A stretch of 27,430 nucleotides of DNA, taken from positions 1-27,430 of the IMG/VR virus record IMGVR_UViG_3300043446_001083; one strand, 5' to 3'. The stretch's first letter is position 1. The number at the start of each line of letters is the position of its first letter. Both the position numbers and the translations under genes were made by a program. The DNA is from a virus. Below the pieces are notes generated by a model, which had not been told where the DNA came from, made no database searches, and saw only the letters and a list, made by a program, of their open reading frames with translations. Shown here piece after piece: positions 1-15,574 of the stretch.

Positions 1-31
1 GCACCAAGGCAGTGAATCTGTGCACCAGTTT

Positions 32-52
32 GGTGCATGGGGCGCCTTTTTT
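32..52 (+). terminator. Putative intrinsic terminator of an upstream gene
   Basis: GGTGC (32-36) pairs with GCGCC (42-46) with one G-U pair and a 5-nt loop, directly followed by six T (47-52). An alternative hairpin pairs TGCACCA (21-27) with TGGTGCA (31-37). The gene it would terminate lies left of the window. Confidence 0.5.
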
Positions 53-240: not shown

Positions 241-258
241 TTGCGGGGGTTGCGGGGG
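241..258. repeat. Tandem direct repeat TTGCGGGGG x2
   Basis: Two perfect 9-bp copies (241-249, 250-258) are followed at once by an AT-only tract (about 261-300). The abrupt G-rich to AT-rich switch is unlike the coding DNA around it. Confidence 0.6.
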
Positions 259-329
259 TTACTTTATTATTTTTATTATTTTTAAAAAATAAAAAATAAA
301 GATAGAGGATAAACTGGAATTAACCCCCG

Positions 330-347
330 AAAGTGCGTAAAGTGCGT
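330..347. repeat. Tandem direct repeat AAAGTGCGT x2
   Basis: Two perfect adjacent 9-bp copies (330-338 and 339-347). Iteron-like repeats near terminase could be a recognition site for a packaging or replication protein, but two copies are weak evidence. Confidence 0.5.
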
Positions 348-384
348 AACTTCTGCGAGCAAAATTGATAGTTAAAAACTATCG

Positions 385-423
385 GGGCTATATTAATCAA
401 TTGTTTGCATTAGTAGGTGTATG
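385..423 (+). promoter_or_regulatory. Promoter-like element copy 1 (leaderless type)
   Basis: GGGCT starts at 385 and the core GCATTAGTA (407-415) starts 22 nt later. After four bases comes TATG (420-423), whose ATG is the start codon of the next gene. A 7-bp hairpin (367-373 with 377-383) sits just upstream. There is no room for a Shine-Dalgarno site between core and ATG. The recurrence of this layout elsewhere in the window is the evidence; the promoter role is inferred. Confidence 0.6.
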
Positions 424-762
424 AACGAATACGTTTACCAGATCCAGGGTGCCTTAGAAGATTCCAATGGGAGACTTCGGGGGATTCGTGTCCTGGTCTG
501 TAACCTCTACTACTTTGACTCGGCCGACGCGCCAGTGGAAATACTGGACAAAGAGACGGCCAAGTATATTGAGTTTCGTTTAAAGGTCTGTGACTACCTC
601 GACATCAACAAATTGCCCGTTGAGGTACAGAACAGGATTCGAGCGCCGTTAGGGCGTTGGCTGGACGATTGGGTCCTAAAGAATTTTTATGGCAATACTA
701 GCAACCGAAAAGATCCTAACCCTGGACTATTGGAAACCGGCAAACAAAATCCAGCCGGGTGA
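421..762 (+). CDS. Unrecognised small phage protein upstream of terminase
   Basis: 113 aa, not recognised. It is soluble-looking with no membrane segment, signal peptide or clear helix-turn-helix. Its place two genes ahead of the large terminase would suit a small terminase subunit, but nothing in the sequence supports that. The start ATG lies five bases after the promoter-like core GCATTAGTA, with no ribosome binding site, so translation may be leaderless. The last 74 bases (about 24 residues, ending in a Pro/Gly/Lys/Asn-rich tail) overlap the next gene in another frame, an unusually long overlap for this compact genome. The functional part may therefore be residues 1-90, rich in acidic and aromatic residues. 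Confidence 0.65.
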   Translation: MNEYVYQIQGALEDSNGRLRGIRVLVCNLYYFDSADAPVEILDKETAKYIEFRLKVCDYLDINKLPVEVQNRIRAPLGRWLDDWVLKNFYGNTSNRKDPNPGLLETGKQNPAG

Positions 763-1681
763 CTACGTGTTTGACCGCAATGGTCAACCAGTCCGCGTAA
801 AATTGGTACAGACGATCCAGGCACAGGCATGCTACGAGGTGCAGCTCAACGATTATACGTCCGTGGCCGGCGATGGCCGGCTTAGTTTTTTGGTAGAGAC
901 GCCAAAGTACCGCAAAAGAGTCCACGAGTACAAGGGAAAACGCCAGTTTAGACGTCCACTAGCAATAAAAACACTGGAAGAACTGACCGCCGCGCCCCTA
1001 AAAACAAAACACAAGCGGCTGGCGTACTCGATACCCACCGCCAGGCCCCTGGAATTACCACACCAGGACCTGCCAGTCCCGCCGTTTTTGTTTGGTTTTT
1101 GGTTTTTTAATCAAAATAGGGACAGACAGTACACGTTTATACCCAATTACACCCAATTAATCGAGCAAAAATTCAAAGATCACGGCTACAAAATAGAACT
1201 TGGTAGTAAAACATACAACGGGCAGCACATGTTCTCTGTGTACCCAACGATTGAGTCACAGCTTGCGCCAAATATCCCGGTAAAAATACCGGCAAACTAC
1301 ATCTTATCGAGCAAAGAGCAGCGGCTAGAGCTGCTGCGTGGGATTTTGTGTGCAAAGTCAAGGCAGTATTCCAAATCGCGGGACACATTTCGCATTACGA
1401 CACAGAATTTTAGTACGATTCAACAGATTCAGTACATCGTCGAGTCATTAGGGCACCGGACCAAGGTGCATTATGACGAAACCAAGAAGTATTACACCAT
1501 ATTTTTTAGATCGCGCCTTAATTTGTTAGAAAACCAAGTCTCGCCGCCTGTAAAGGTGCACCTTGGCAGACGATACATCAAACAGATTGAGCCGCTGCCA
1601 CCGCAGCAGTGTATTCACATTGAGACGGATGGCCCCGACAACAGCTATCTCGTAGGAGAGGGTTTTATTTCATGCCGTTAA
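689..1681 (+). CDS. Free-standing Hint/intein-like protein, apparently inactive
   Basis: 330 aa resembling an intein from end to end but standing alone. Residues 9-36 (ILTLDYWKPANKIQPGDYVF, then NGQPV) match the N-terminal Hint block. The start Met and Ala2 lie where catalytic Cys1 would be. Block-B His appears to be Arg64. Residues 129-170 (PPFLFGFWFF) and 211-260 (RLELLRGILCAKS) look like the two LAGLIDADG-type endonuclease blocks with their acidic residues missing. The C-terminus CIHIE, then NSYLVGEGFISCR and stop, matches the last splicing block, with His-Asn replaced by Cys-Arg and no extein following. Splicing and cleavage activity therefore look lost while the reading frame stays open, which suggests domestication. 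Its end overlaps terL by 10 bases. The assignment rests on motif recognition; a structural prediction would settle it. Confidence 0.75.
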   Translation: MAILATEKILTLDYWKPANKIQPGDYVFDRNGQPVRVKLVQTIQAQACYEVQLNDYTSVAGDGRLSFLVETPKYRKRVHEYKGKRQFRRPLAIKTLEELTAAPLKTKHKRLAYSIPTARPLELPHQDLPVPPFLFGFWFFNQNRDRQYTFIPNYTQLIEQKFKDHGYKIELGSKTYNGQHMFSVYPTIESQLAPNIPVKIPANYILSSKEQRLELLRGILCAKSRQYSKSRDTFRITTQNFSTIQQIQYIVESLGHRTKVHYDETKKYYTIFFRSRLNLLENQVSPPVKVHLGRRYIKQIEPLPPQQCIHIETDGPDNSYLVGEGFISCR

Positions 1682-3117
1682 CACCAAAACAAGAGCTAAC
1701 TTTAAAAAAGTTTGCAAACGATAACAAACACTGGCCTAAGGAACAGTTAGAAGCAGCCATCTGGCAGGTACGCTGGCATCTACAGGCACTACCACACCAA
1801 CGTGAACCGGAAGATGGAGAGTATGATACGTTTCTTATGCTGGCTGGCCGAGGATCGGGGAAGACGCACACGGCTAGTCATTGGATTGGCATTCGTGCTT
1901 GGGTTTATGACAACACTCGCTGGCTCGTCACCGCTCCCACCTCAAACGATATCCGTGCAACTTGTTTTGAGGGAGACTCCGGACTTCTTAATATCATTCC
2001 CCCGGCACTCATCCGCGATTACAACAAGTCCCTCTTTGAGATTACCCTTATCAACGGGTCTCTCATCCAGGGGATTCCCGCTTCTGAACCAGAACGCTAC
2101 CGCGGTAAGCAATACCATGGGGCTTGGTTCGATGAGCTGTGTGCGTTTGATTACATCGACGAGGCCTACGATGGAGTACAGTTTACGCTCCGTCTACGGG
2201 ACCCACGGATTCCTCGCGTGCAACAGATTATTACCACCACCCCCAAACCAAAAGAATTAATTGTAGACTTAAACGAGGGTAAGATTGGTGGGGACGTGTA
2301 CGTATCTAACGCCTCGTCGTATGACAACCGGGCCAACCTCTCAGAGACATTCTTCAAACAGCTTGAGACGTACGACGGCACCGACATGGGTCGTCAGGAG
2401 ATCTATGGTGAGATCCTCGACCCCGAGCAGGCGGGTATCATCAAGCGCAAACAGTTTAGGATCTGGCCAGCGAATAAACCAACGCCGACCCTGGAGTACG
2501 TGATCGCCTCGTACGATCCAGCCACCAGCGAGAAGACAATGAACGACCCCACCGCGTGTACGGTCTGGGGCGTGTTTGAAAACCAAGACTCAGGCACCGC
2601 AGTCATTTTGTTAGACGCCTGGGACGAGCACCTGTCGTACCCAGAGCTGCGCAGAAAAGTGATTAACGACTTTAAGGAGGTCGTCTACGGTGCGGATAAC
2701 GACTTTGGTAAGGGGCGTAAAGCGGACCTGCTATTGATGGAAGACAAATCGGCGGGTATCAGTCTTATACAAGAGCTTCAGGGCGCGGGAGTGCCCGTGC
2801 GCGGATATAACCCCGGCCGTGCCGATAAGGTACAGCGACTTAACATCGTCGCGCCCATCGTGGCCAAGGGTAAGGTCTGGATACCAGAGGAACCACAACG
2901 TAAAGGGGAATATGCAGACTGGGCAAAACGATTTCTGCGTCAAGTATGTTCTTTTCCAGAGGCTGGCGGGCACGATGACTACGTCGACTCGCTCTCCCAG
3001 GCCCTGCGCGTTCTTCGTGATTCTGGATGGATCCAACTCGACCCGCTACCAGCTCGAGATTATAGTTACGCAGATGACGACCTAAGTAAACGATTTGCTA
3101 ACCCTTACGCCCAGTAG
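1672..3117 (+). CDS. terL: Terminase large subunit
   Basis: 481 aa, normal length for a TerL, the ATPase-nuclease motor that cuts concatemeric DNA and pumps it into proheads through the portal. Walker A is GRGSGKT (residues 59-65). Walker B is AWFDE (151-155) with the catalytic Glu155. The coupling segment is IITTTPKP (186-193). The C-terminal RNase H-like nuclease shows ASYDPAT (Asp282), LLMEDKSAG (Glu357/Asp358) and GGHDDYVDS (Asp435, Asp436, Asp439). All key residues are present and the gene is not interrupted by an intein. The start at 1672 lies inside the end of the Hint gene, with AGGAG at 1654-1658 and GAGGG at 1658-1662 as candidate binding sites. The stop codon sits in the loop of a terminator-like hairpin. 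Confidence 0.97.
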   Translation: MPLTPKQELTLKKFANDNKHWPKEQLEAAIWQVRWHLQALPHQREPEDGEYDTFLMLAGRGSGKTHTASHWIGIRAWVYDNTRWLVTAPTSNDIRATCFEGDSGLLNIIPPALIRDYNKSLFEITLINGSLIQGIPASEPERYRGKQYHGAWFDELCAFDYIDEAYDGVQFTLRLRDPRIPRVQQIITTTPKPKELIVDLNEGKIGGDVYVSNASSYDNRANLSETFFKQLETYDGTDMGRQEIYGEILDPEQAGIIKRKQFRIWPANKPTPTLEYVIASYDPATSEKTMNDPTACTVWGVFENQDSGTAVILLDAWDEHLSYPELRRKVINDFKEVVYGADNDFGKGRKADLLLMEDKSAGISLIQELQGAGVPVRGYNPGRADKVQRLNIVAPIVAKGKVWIPEEPQRKGEYADWAKRFLRQVCSFPEAGGHDDYVDSLSQALRVLRDSGWIQLDPLPARDYSYADDDLSKRFANPYAQ

Positions 3118-6903: not shown

Positions 6904-7344
6904 ATGGCATTTGATGTATCACAAAAAGAAGACCCAGATCTACGCTCAGAGGAAGAGTGTTTTCCAGACGTTGATCCAGGTATTGAAGTAGCCGGAGACC
7001 GTGTTTTAGTGCAACTACGACGCGAGAAGGCTAAAAGTAAGGGCGGAATCATTTTAGTTGATGAGACCCGACAGACGTTACGTTTCAACGAGACCGTAGC
7101 TAAAGTACGCCAGATTGGCCCTCTAGCATATAAATCGCCGGATACCTTAGAGCCTTGGATTGAAGGCCCCTGGTGTAAAGTTGGCGATTTGGTTAGAACA
7201 ATCAAGTACGGTGGTGACCGTTTTGTTGTAAATCCTGATGATGATGGAGCACCGATTGTGTTTATCACCATCCAGGCACGTGAAATCATTTCTCGCATCA
7301 AGTCGTTTGAGTATGCGCAGAAGATGAAGGCGTTTGTAGATTAA
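6904..7344 (+). CDS. GroES-like co-chaperonin
   Basis: 146 aa, longer than bacterial GroES (about 97 aa). Residues about 26-133 match the Cpn10 beta-barrel: GIEVAGDRVLVQL at the start, KSKGGIILVDET as the mobile-loop region that docks on GroEL, KVGDLVRTIKYGGDRFVV, and a hydrophobic end IVFITIQAREIISRI. An acidic 25-residue N-terminal extension and a C-terminal tail flank it. Like T4 gp31, it probably adapts host GroEL to fold the large coat protein encoded three genes downstream. The start at 6904 is chosen from AAAGGAG (6890-6896); the ATG at 6897 is out of frame. Recognition is good, though identity with host GroES is low by eye. Confidence 0.88.
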   Translation: MAFDVSQKEDPDLRSEEECFPDVDPGIEVAGDRVLVQLRREKAKSKGGIILVDETRQTLRFNETVAKVRQIGPLAYKSPDTLEPWIEGPWCKVGDLVRTIKYGGDRFVVNPDDDGAPIVFITIQAREIISRIKSFEYAQKMKAFVD

Positions 7345-12705: not shown

Positions 12706-14517
<1,812 letters not shown>

Positions 14518-14530
14518 CTAGGAGTAGTCT

Positions 14531-15574
14531 ATGAAAATCGCTGTATATGCGATTAGCAAAAACGAGGAGCAGTTTGTAAAAACATTCTGCGAATCAAGTA
14601 AACTAGCAGATTATATTATGATCGCCGACACGGGATCAACCGACGGAACGGTCGAGGAGGCTAAAAAGTATGGGGCTGTTGTTCATAGCATTTGCATTTC
14701 TCCTTGGCGCTTCGATCATGCTAGGAATGCCGCTCTGGCACTACTCCCCGCTGACATTGACGTCTGCATATCGCTAGATTTAGATGAGCAGTTAGAGCCT
14801 GGTTGGCGCGATGAGATAGAGCGCTTGTGGACACCAGAAACCACACGCATGAGTTACAAGTTTGATTGGGGTCACGGCAAAGTATTTTATAGTACGAAAC
14901 TACACAGCCGCAAAGGGTATCACTGGCATCATCCGTGCCATGAGTACATCAGACCGGATCACAGGACAAAAGAAGTCTGGGCGTACAGTGAGATGTTGTT
15001 AATTACGCACCACCCAGACGAGACAAAATCAAGGGGTCAGTACTTAGACCTGCTTGAGATGTCGGTAAAAGAAGACCCAAGCTGCCCACGTAATGCGTTT
15101 TACTACGCACGGGAGTTAACATACTACCAGCGTTGGAGTGAGGCGATAGTAGCGCTACAAAAGTATCTGGCAATGCCAGAGGCCACATGGAACAACGAGC
15201 GAGCATACGCCATGAGGCTGATTGGTAACTGCTACGATAACCTGGGGCAAGACGGCATGAACTGGTACCGTCGAGCAGTATCTGAAGACCCAGGCGTGCG
15301 CGAGACATGGTGCGAGTTAGCACAGGCGTGCTACAGAAAAGGATTATGGGAGGAGTGTTACGGCGCAGCATGTAACGCACTCAAGCTGACAGAGTGTACC
15401 TATACGTACACAATCGACGCAAACAACTGGAAGGCAAGACCGCACGACTTAGCGGCAATTGCAGCGTACAGATTAGGATTTAAACAGGAAGCAATACGAC
15501 ACGGCGAAAACGCTTTGAAATTTGAACCCAATAACGAGAGATTAATAAAAAACCTCGAGTATTATAAGGAATAA
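14531..15574 (+). CDS. Family 2 glycosyltransferase with TPR-like C-terminus
   Basis: 347 aa. The GT-A fold is shown by the N-terminal AVYAISKNEEQFV, the nucleotide-binding IADTGSTDGT (31-40), FDHARNAAL (61-69) and the metal-binding DLDE (83-86), followed by GTs' typical GYHWHHPCHEYIR acceptor-region segment. Residues about 165-345 are helical repeats resembling TPRs (YYARELTYYQRWSEAIVALQ; YRKGLWEECYGAACNALKL). It transfers a sugar from an activated donor to an unknown acceptor in the cytoplasm. It lies between two fibre genes with a good TAGGAG site 13 bases after the collagen fibre stop, so a virion protein, most simply the Thr-rich collagen-like fibre, is the likely acceptor. Host surface glycan or phage DNA modification are alternatives. 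Confidence 0.88.
   Translation: MKIAVYAISKNEEQFVKTFCESSKLADYIMIADTGSTDGTVEEAKKYGAVVHSICISPWRFDHARNAALALLPADIDVCISLDLDEQLEPGWRDEIERLWTPETTRMSYKFDWGHGKVFYSTKLHSRKGYHWHHPCHEYIRPDHRTKEVWAYSEMLLITHHPDETKSRGQYLDLLEMSVKEDPSCPRNAFYYARELTYYQRWSEAIVALQKYLAMPEATWNNERAYAMRLIGNCYDNLGQDGMNWYRRAVSEDPGVRETWCELAQACYRKGLWEECYGAACNALKLTECTYTYTIDANNWKARPHDLAAIAAYRLGFKQEAIRHGENALKFEPNNERLIKNLEYYKE

Follow-up and report, generated by a model that had tools for sequence, protein, structure and literature searches.

A free-standing, splicing-dead and nuclease-dead intein derivative fixed before the large terminase gene of a phage clade, and its possible role in place of the small terminase

The open reading frame (ORF) at 689-1681 of the window, which is the whole 27,430-nucleotide stretch analysed here (IMG/VR record IMGVR_UViG_3300043446_001083, positions 1 to 27,430), encodes what is by origin a complete intein of class 3 type, LAGLIDADG domain included, that has become free-standing; this origin is strongly supported. 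Our preferred reading, held tentatively and with a little less than even confidence, is that this Hint protein, dead both in splicing and as a nuclease, is a domesticated intein that persists as a basic protein binding DNA, most probably in the role of the small terminase (TerS), either alone or with the small protein encoded just upstream. The features on which the argument draws are the following.

241-349, unstranded: 9-bp repeats, TTGCGGGGG twice at 241-258 and AGTGCGTAA twice at 332-349, either side of an AT-rich stretch and upstream of the small ORF (from the sequence)
421-762, plus strand: small conserved ORF, 113 aa here and 95-113 aa in relatives; candidate partner of the Hint protein or alternative TerS (gene order, frames, model)
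689-1681, plus strand: intein-derived (Hint and LAGLIDADG) free-standing protein, splicing-dead and nuclease-dead, 330 aa (ORF, relatives, model, dN/dS, profile comparison)
689-1033, plus strand: N-terminal half of the Hint fold, approximately residues 1-115 (class 3 intein alignment; model)
881-883, plus strand: Leu65 at the position of the block B His (class 3 intein alignment)
887-889, plus strand: class 3 Trp replaced by Phe67 (same alignment)
1034-1543, plus strand: LAGLIDADG domain, approximately residues 116-285 (family conservation, fold matches, alignment)
1109-1111, plus strand: Asn141 at the position of a catalytic Asp (class 3 intein alignment; 57-member family)
1355-1357, plus strand: catalytic Asp replaced by Lys223 (alignment with class 3 inteins; 57-member family)
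1544-1678, plus strand: C-terminal part of the Hint fold, terminal Asn absent (hhalign and alignment with class 3 inteins)
1616-1618, plus strand: His310 at the position of the class 3 Cys (class 3 intein alignment)
1655-1662, plus strand: Shine-Dalgarno-like GGAGAGGG for terL, within the Hint codons for GEG (from the sequence)
1673-1675, plus strand: class 3 Thr replaced by Cys329 (alignment with class 3 inteins)
1672-3117, plus strand: large terminase subunit TerL, 481 aa, with an uninterrupted P-loop AGRGSGKT (Pfam and PHROG searches)

The Hint gene runs from ATG to TAA. Its start sits within the small ORF, in a different frame, and its 3' end overlaps terL by 10 nt, the Hint stop ending at 1681 and the terL ATG beginning at 1672. 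The overlap with terL proposed in a preliminary description of this DNA is therefore real at the 3' end, but the start, taken there to be coupled to the terminase, lies in the small ORF. The protein looks like an orphan, because single-sequence Pfam and NCBIfam searches gave no match above cut-off, and a TerS family is absent among its Pfam, PHROG and NCBIfam matches. PHROG terminase profiles do match it (phrog_15, E 1e-13), an annotation trap that arises most likely because these profiles include intein-bearing terminases. Elsewhere in the window we noted a GroES-like protein (Cpn10) within the head gene block (6904-7344), present also in the TerS-bearing sister phage MW202545; a 603-aa protein of the tail region with long collagen-like GPTGPTG repeats (12706-14517; Pfam Collagen); and, between tail-region genes, a glycosyltransferase family 2 gene with TPR-like repeats (14531-15574).

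The structure of the Hint protein, modelled with AlphaFold2 from an alignment of 51 rows (pLDDT 92.9, pTM 0.88), contains both Hint halves and a LAGLIDADG fold with its two motif helices, which matches PI-SceI and I-DmoI. Using Foldseek and VIA-align, the model was found to resemble PI-SceI over its full length (E 3.9e-14, Z 25.3, 319 residues, 3.5 A), and its Hint part the class 3 MchDnaB1 intein (6rix; Z 18.5, 128 residues, 1.8 A). The structure and profile comparisons that the preliminary description had called for thus returned the Hint and LAGLIDADG fold that it had read from the sequence, and not an unrelated one. For comparison at the sequence level we took six active-type phage inteins, five from TerL and one from a Cas4-like protein, all of class 3; the Hint family aligned with them end-to-end by hhalign, with a probability of 100 and E 8.7e-39. 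Residues 2-329 cover columns 1-336 of the 338 in the profile of real inteins, such that the product runs from intein residue 1 to about the penultimate position, as had been supposed; intein matches span Hint 1-330, and no extra domain was predicted from the model and structure matches. The protein therefore has the HINT fold with inserted endonuclease of class 3 inteins and is homologous to them. Separately, gene 195 of Mycobacterium phage ScoobyDoobyDoo (L039:1551-3311), annotated as 'HNH endonuclease', actually encodes an exonuclease-like host protein with a class 3 intein inside it; in Mycobacterium phage Traft412 the corresponding gene bears the name Cas4 family exonuclease.

Class 3 inteins are defined by a Trp-Cys-Thr triplet in blocks B, F and G (PMC5050341). 

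All six comparators carry this triplet, and their first residue is A, D, P or Q, never Cys. The Ala at Hint position 2, which aligns to intein residue 1, is consequently no sign of inactivity, since the parent is a class 3 intein without Cys as first residue; on this point the preliminary description, which had read Ala2 as a lost Cys1, does not stand. Its wider claim that splicing and acidic nuclease residues are gone does. Phe67, His310 and Cys329 align at the Trp, Cys and Thr positions; across the Hint sequences compared, the triplet, the block B His and the terminal Asn have all been substituted or lost, from which we conclude that the protein is inactive in splicing. Neither a C-terminal Asn nor in-frame exteins are found: the ORF stops before the Asn, stop codons lie shortly upstream and terL is in a different frame. 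Likewise, the block C and block E Asp, invariant in all six comparators, are non-acidic in every one of the 57 full-length Hint members, position 141 being N, A, G, S or T and position 223 being K or R. The acidic residue that ends each LAGLIDADG motif is thus missing family-wide, so that its absence from GFWFF and GILCAKS is not local decay.

Two possibilities of residual activity were considered and rejected. Cys308 and Cys329 are invariant in the family, the latter largely because the overlapping terL ATG forces it; as for Cys308 being a retained class 3 nucleophile, both MAFFT and hhalign place the class 3 Cys at His310, two residues on, with a local register shift possible. A frameshift fusion of small ORF, Hint and TerL giving a spliced protein is contradicted by the gene's own ATG, by the missing splicing residues and by stops 3-12 codons upstream in the Hint frame of the loci first examined.

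Relatives were collected from IMG/VR, where the protein search matched 32 loci and the family alignment 299 stretches, far more than chance would give; these records are mostly fragments, and exact peptide-pattern searches favour near relatives. The Hint relatives are 45-100% identical, and the best matches among annotated phage records only about 26%. The frame, translated from Met, is open in 91 of 93 loci, the in-frame stop being confined to one contig that is counted twice (L028 and L080). When the overlapping stretches are left out, the median dN/dS of Hint comes to 0.096 (97 pairs), that of the small ORF to 0.122 and that of TerL to 0.039. The Hint gene is therefore a real gene under purifying selection, as its 330 open codons had suggested. 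Its divergence nevertheless far outpaces that of the neighbouring genes: when the window is compared with L016, Hint is 56% identical in its non-overlapping part, as against 88% for the small ORF and 95% for TerL, which suggests allele exchange. All 57 members are basic (pI 9.1-9.9), with a median net charge of +17 versus -4 to +12 in active-type inteins. Three different clade members (L277, L278 and L279), with 48% identical Hint relatives and the same gene order, were found on three contigs that share a single betaproteobacterial metagenome bin (Umea), which points weakly to the host group.

The position of the gene is equally constant. Among the 80 loci with the closest TerL, two begin at a contig edge, and Hint adjoins terL in all 78 that have sequence upstream, which bears out the conservation of place that had been put forward as a check and differs from the sporadic presence of LAGLIDADG homing endonucleases. 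The order is small ORF, Hint, terL, with the small ORF present wherever loci reach far enough. Frames shift by +1 from small ORF to Hint and by -1 from Hint to terL in 54 of 55 distinct loci, the exception having a gene inserted between Hint and terL; the first overlap measures 20, 38 or 74 nt and the second 10 or 4 nt. A near-identical 128-aa HNH-type gene with its own overlap with the terL start was seen between Hint and terL at L029:1042-1428 and also in L043 and L049. In these three loci the overlap of Hint with the terL start is gone and the GGAGAGGG stretch is synonymously re-coded, while the C-terminal GEGF and CR of the protein are kept, which favours selection on the Hint protein itself. 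Relatives with exteins, which would mark this copy as a decaying intein, were not found in the Hint clade. Fold, end-to-end class 3 homology, residue loss, purifying selection and invariable position together uphold the view of a free-standing domesticated Hint protein.

The nearest TerL clade outside, with TerL 54% identical, comprises MW202545 and 80 IMG/VR loci. Neither Hint nor the small ORF occurs in any of these 80 loci, and 77 have a TerS match before terL, the other three beginning near contig starts. This TerS and that of Caulobacter phage GB2A belong to PF20901 (Sf6-type). A profile of the conserved TerS C-terminus matched 89 frames in the sister clade but had no match below E 0.7 in the Hint clade. 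In eight larger Hint-clade records, PF20901 and PF03592 gave no match above cut-off, with a single sub-cut-off match of PF20901 in G007 (E 0.01, 11.7 bits) and none of PF03592. Two of these records appear to be complete, G004 with an end repeat of 127 nt and G006 with one of 101 nt, and among 10 late G004 proteins in the size range of TerS, which were lysis, tail, GroES, structural, unknown or without matches, TerS was not found. Judging from these searches, the Hint-clade phages, which come from freshwater, appear to be without a small terminase.

A TerL tree of at most 28 sequences had the topology ((Hint 97, TerS 100) 100, Caulobacter TerS) 99, with the TerS-bearing GB2A as outgroup, by which TerS is ancestral and was replaced once; the simplest history is a single TerS loss with gain of the small ORF and Hint. 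The Hint gene thus lies where the Sf6-type TerS lies in the sister clade, directly before an orthologous TerL, and the two are mutually exclusive, but their sequences are unrelated and Hint falls outside all TerS families found. The earlier proposal of a replacement for a missing small terminase gains from the TerS of sister clade and outgroup and from its apparent absence in the Hint clade; that Hint itself is the replacement is something we infer, the small ORF being an alternative. Some TerS-bearing relatives have, ahead of the complete TerL, a partial one that comprises the N-terminal ATPase part (L196:774-1319; L035:2445-3113, gp096c of Caulobacter phage GB2A); this arrangement might be a step on the way to an intein without exteins.

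Class 3 inteins sit in the TerL P-loop of Clavibacter phage CMP1, Gordonia phage YungMoney, Stenotrophomonas phage SOVA965 and Synechococcus phage B23, and P-loop intein sites are known in mycobacteriophage TerL1 (PMC5050341). They share with Hint full-length homology, Hint and LAGLIDADG parts, a length of about 330-355 aa, a non-Cys first residue and association with the terminase. However, they lie between exteins and keep Trp-Cys-Thr, the terminal Asn and the LAGLIDADG Asp, whereas the Hint protein has neither exteins nor those residues and is fixed. Yeast HO endonuclease and the WHO elements are also intein-derived and stand alone, without exteins or a proper motif G, and HO is domesticated (PMC7282813); yet they are nucleases with a zinc finger, unlike Hint, which ends at block G without an extra domain or catalytic Asp. 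WhiA (DUF199) has a LAGLIDADG fold without metal-binding and catalytic residues and is, as Hint, degenerate, fixed and domesticated (PMC3781837), but it is a bacterial transcription factor with a C-terminal HTH domain and no Hint domain. Full-text searches of open-access papers found no description of an intein that serves as a terminase subunit.

Upstream of the small ORF, 9-bp repeat arrays, largely inverted around an AT-rich stretch, occur in the window (241-349) and in about 48 related loci, in a region with the appearance of an origin or a control element that separates divergent gene blocks. The repeat sequences vary between phages (TTGCGGGGG, TTGTCAGGG, TTGCTAGGG, GTCGGACAA and others). 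As a target of Hint they are not supported: the window and L016 have TTGCGGGGG in common despite such divergent Hint proteins, and the partial rank correlation between repeat and Hint similarity is 0.10. Since the repeats do not track the Hint allele, no Hint target site was identified from them. Farther upstream (L008:4161-4391, L025:3931-4162, window 1-40) there are ATGTTGCACCGCACCA repeats and TGCACCAnnTTGGTGCA-type palindromes.

How such a protein arose and what it does can be proposed as follows. A terminase P-loop intein would probably have lost its exteins, the residue preceding intein position 1 becoming the start codon of the Hint gene, and this intein-derived element would have replaced TerS once. 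The role in packaging, which we infer from the sequences, would be that the LAGLIDADG domain still binds DNA without cutting, and that the Hint protein, made together with TerL from overlapping genes, marks phage DNA for TerL and so takes on the recognition task of TerS; the small protein encoded at 421-762 would possibly be its partner in recognition of the packaging site. More tentatively still, a selfish intein that once interrupted the packaging motor may have become the DNA-recognition subunit of that motor, displacing the ancestral small terminase clade-wide.

Against Hint as the TerS it can be argued that the upstream repeats, which do not track the Hint allele, point to no target site; that the small ORF occupies the same position and may itself be equivalent to TerS; that a TerS of another family may sit elsewhere in the genome; and that TerL may simply work without one, which would equally account for the missing TerS homolog. 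The small protein may thus be either a partner of Hint or the actual TerS equivalent. That it is the new TerS, with Hint an accessory such as a late-operon regulator or a TerL clamp, we consider unlikely. It is as invariable as Hint, always directly upstream in the other frame, and the smallest TerS proteins are close to it in size. Nevertheless, its predicted fold is beta-beta-beta-alpha-alpha without HTH, its median pI is 6.06 and no PDB or BFVD fold matched at E below 0.001, and of the two proteins it is Hint that is basic with a DNA-binding fold. Assignment of the small protein to a known family also failed, with no Pfam, NCBIfam or PDB sequence match and weak PHROG matches only. We regard as similarly improbable that Hint is a DNA-binding transcriptional or translational regulator and not a packaging factor. 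The precedent is WhiA, a degenerate LAGLIDADG protein working as a regulator (PMC3781837), and the Hint gene is second in the late operon, near an intergenic region with conserved repeats; these repeats, however, are common to divergent Hint alleles, and the exact exchange with TerS would be left unexplained.

The two readings that deny the protein a new function fare much worse. Homing endonuclease genes commonly degrade after invasion (PMC13405050), and both ends of Hint overlap neighbours, so that an inactive relic kept only through these overlaps might be envisaged; but the low dN/dS was measured outside the overlaps across the whole gene, the frame is open in nearly all loci, and GEGF and CR persist by synonymous recoding where the HNH-type gene separates Hint from terL, which makes this relic reading very improbable. 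Hardly more credible is a still active homing endonuclease or autoprocessing protein with a rearranged active site. The two invariant Cys, the rapid divergence and the apparent allele exchange between otherwise similar phages speak for it, whereas both metal-binding Asp positions are non-acidic throughout, the class 3 Cys is aligned to His, no terminal Asn is present, the overlapping terL ATG largely dictates Cys329 and presence of the gene is fixed, not sporadic.

Domesticated homing endonucleases are few (HO, WhiA), and we are aware of no case in which a full-length intein, deprived of both activities, turned into a core viral gene. The small terminase, in turn, is usually treated as a core part of the motor. 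If the Hint protein serves packaging, the small terminase would be replaceable by an unrelated protein recruited from the motor gene's own parasite. The Hint clade with its TerS-bearing sister offers a natural experiment on how TerL finds its DNA.
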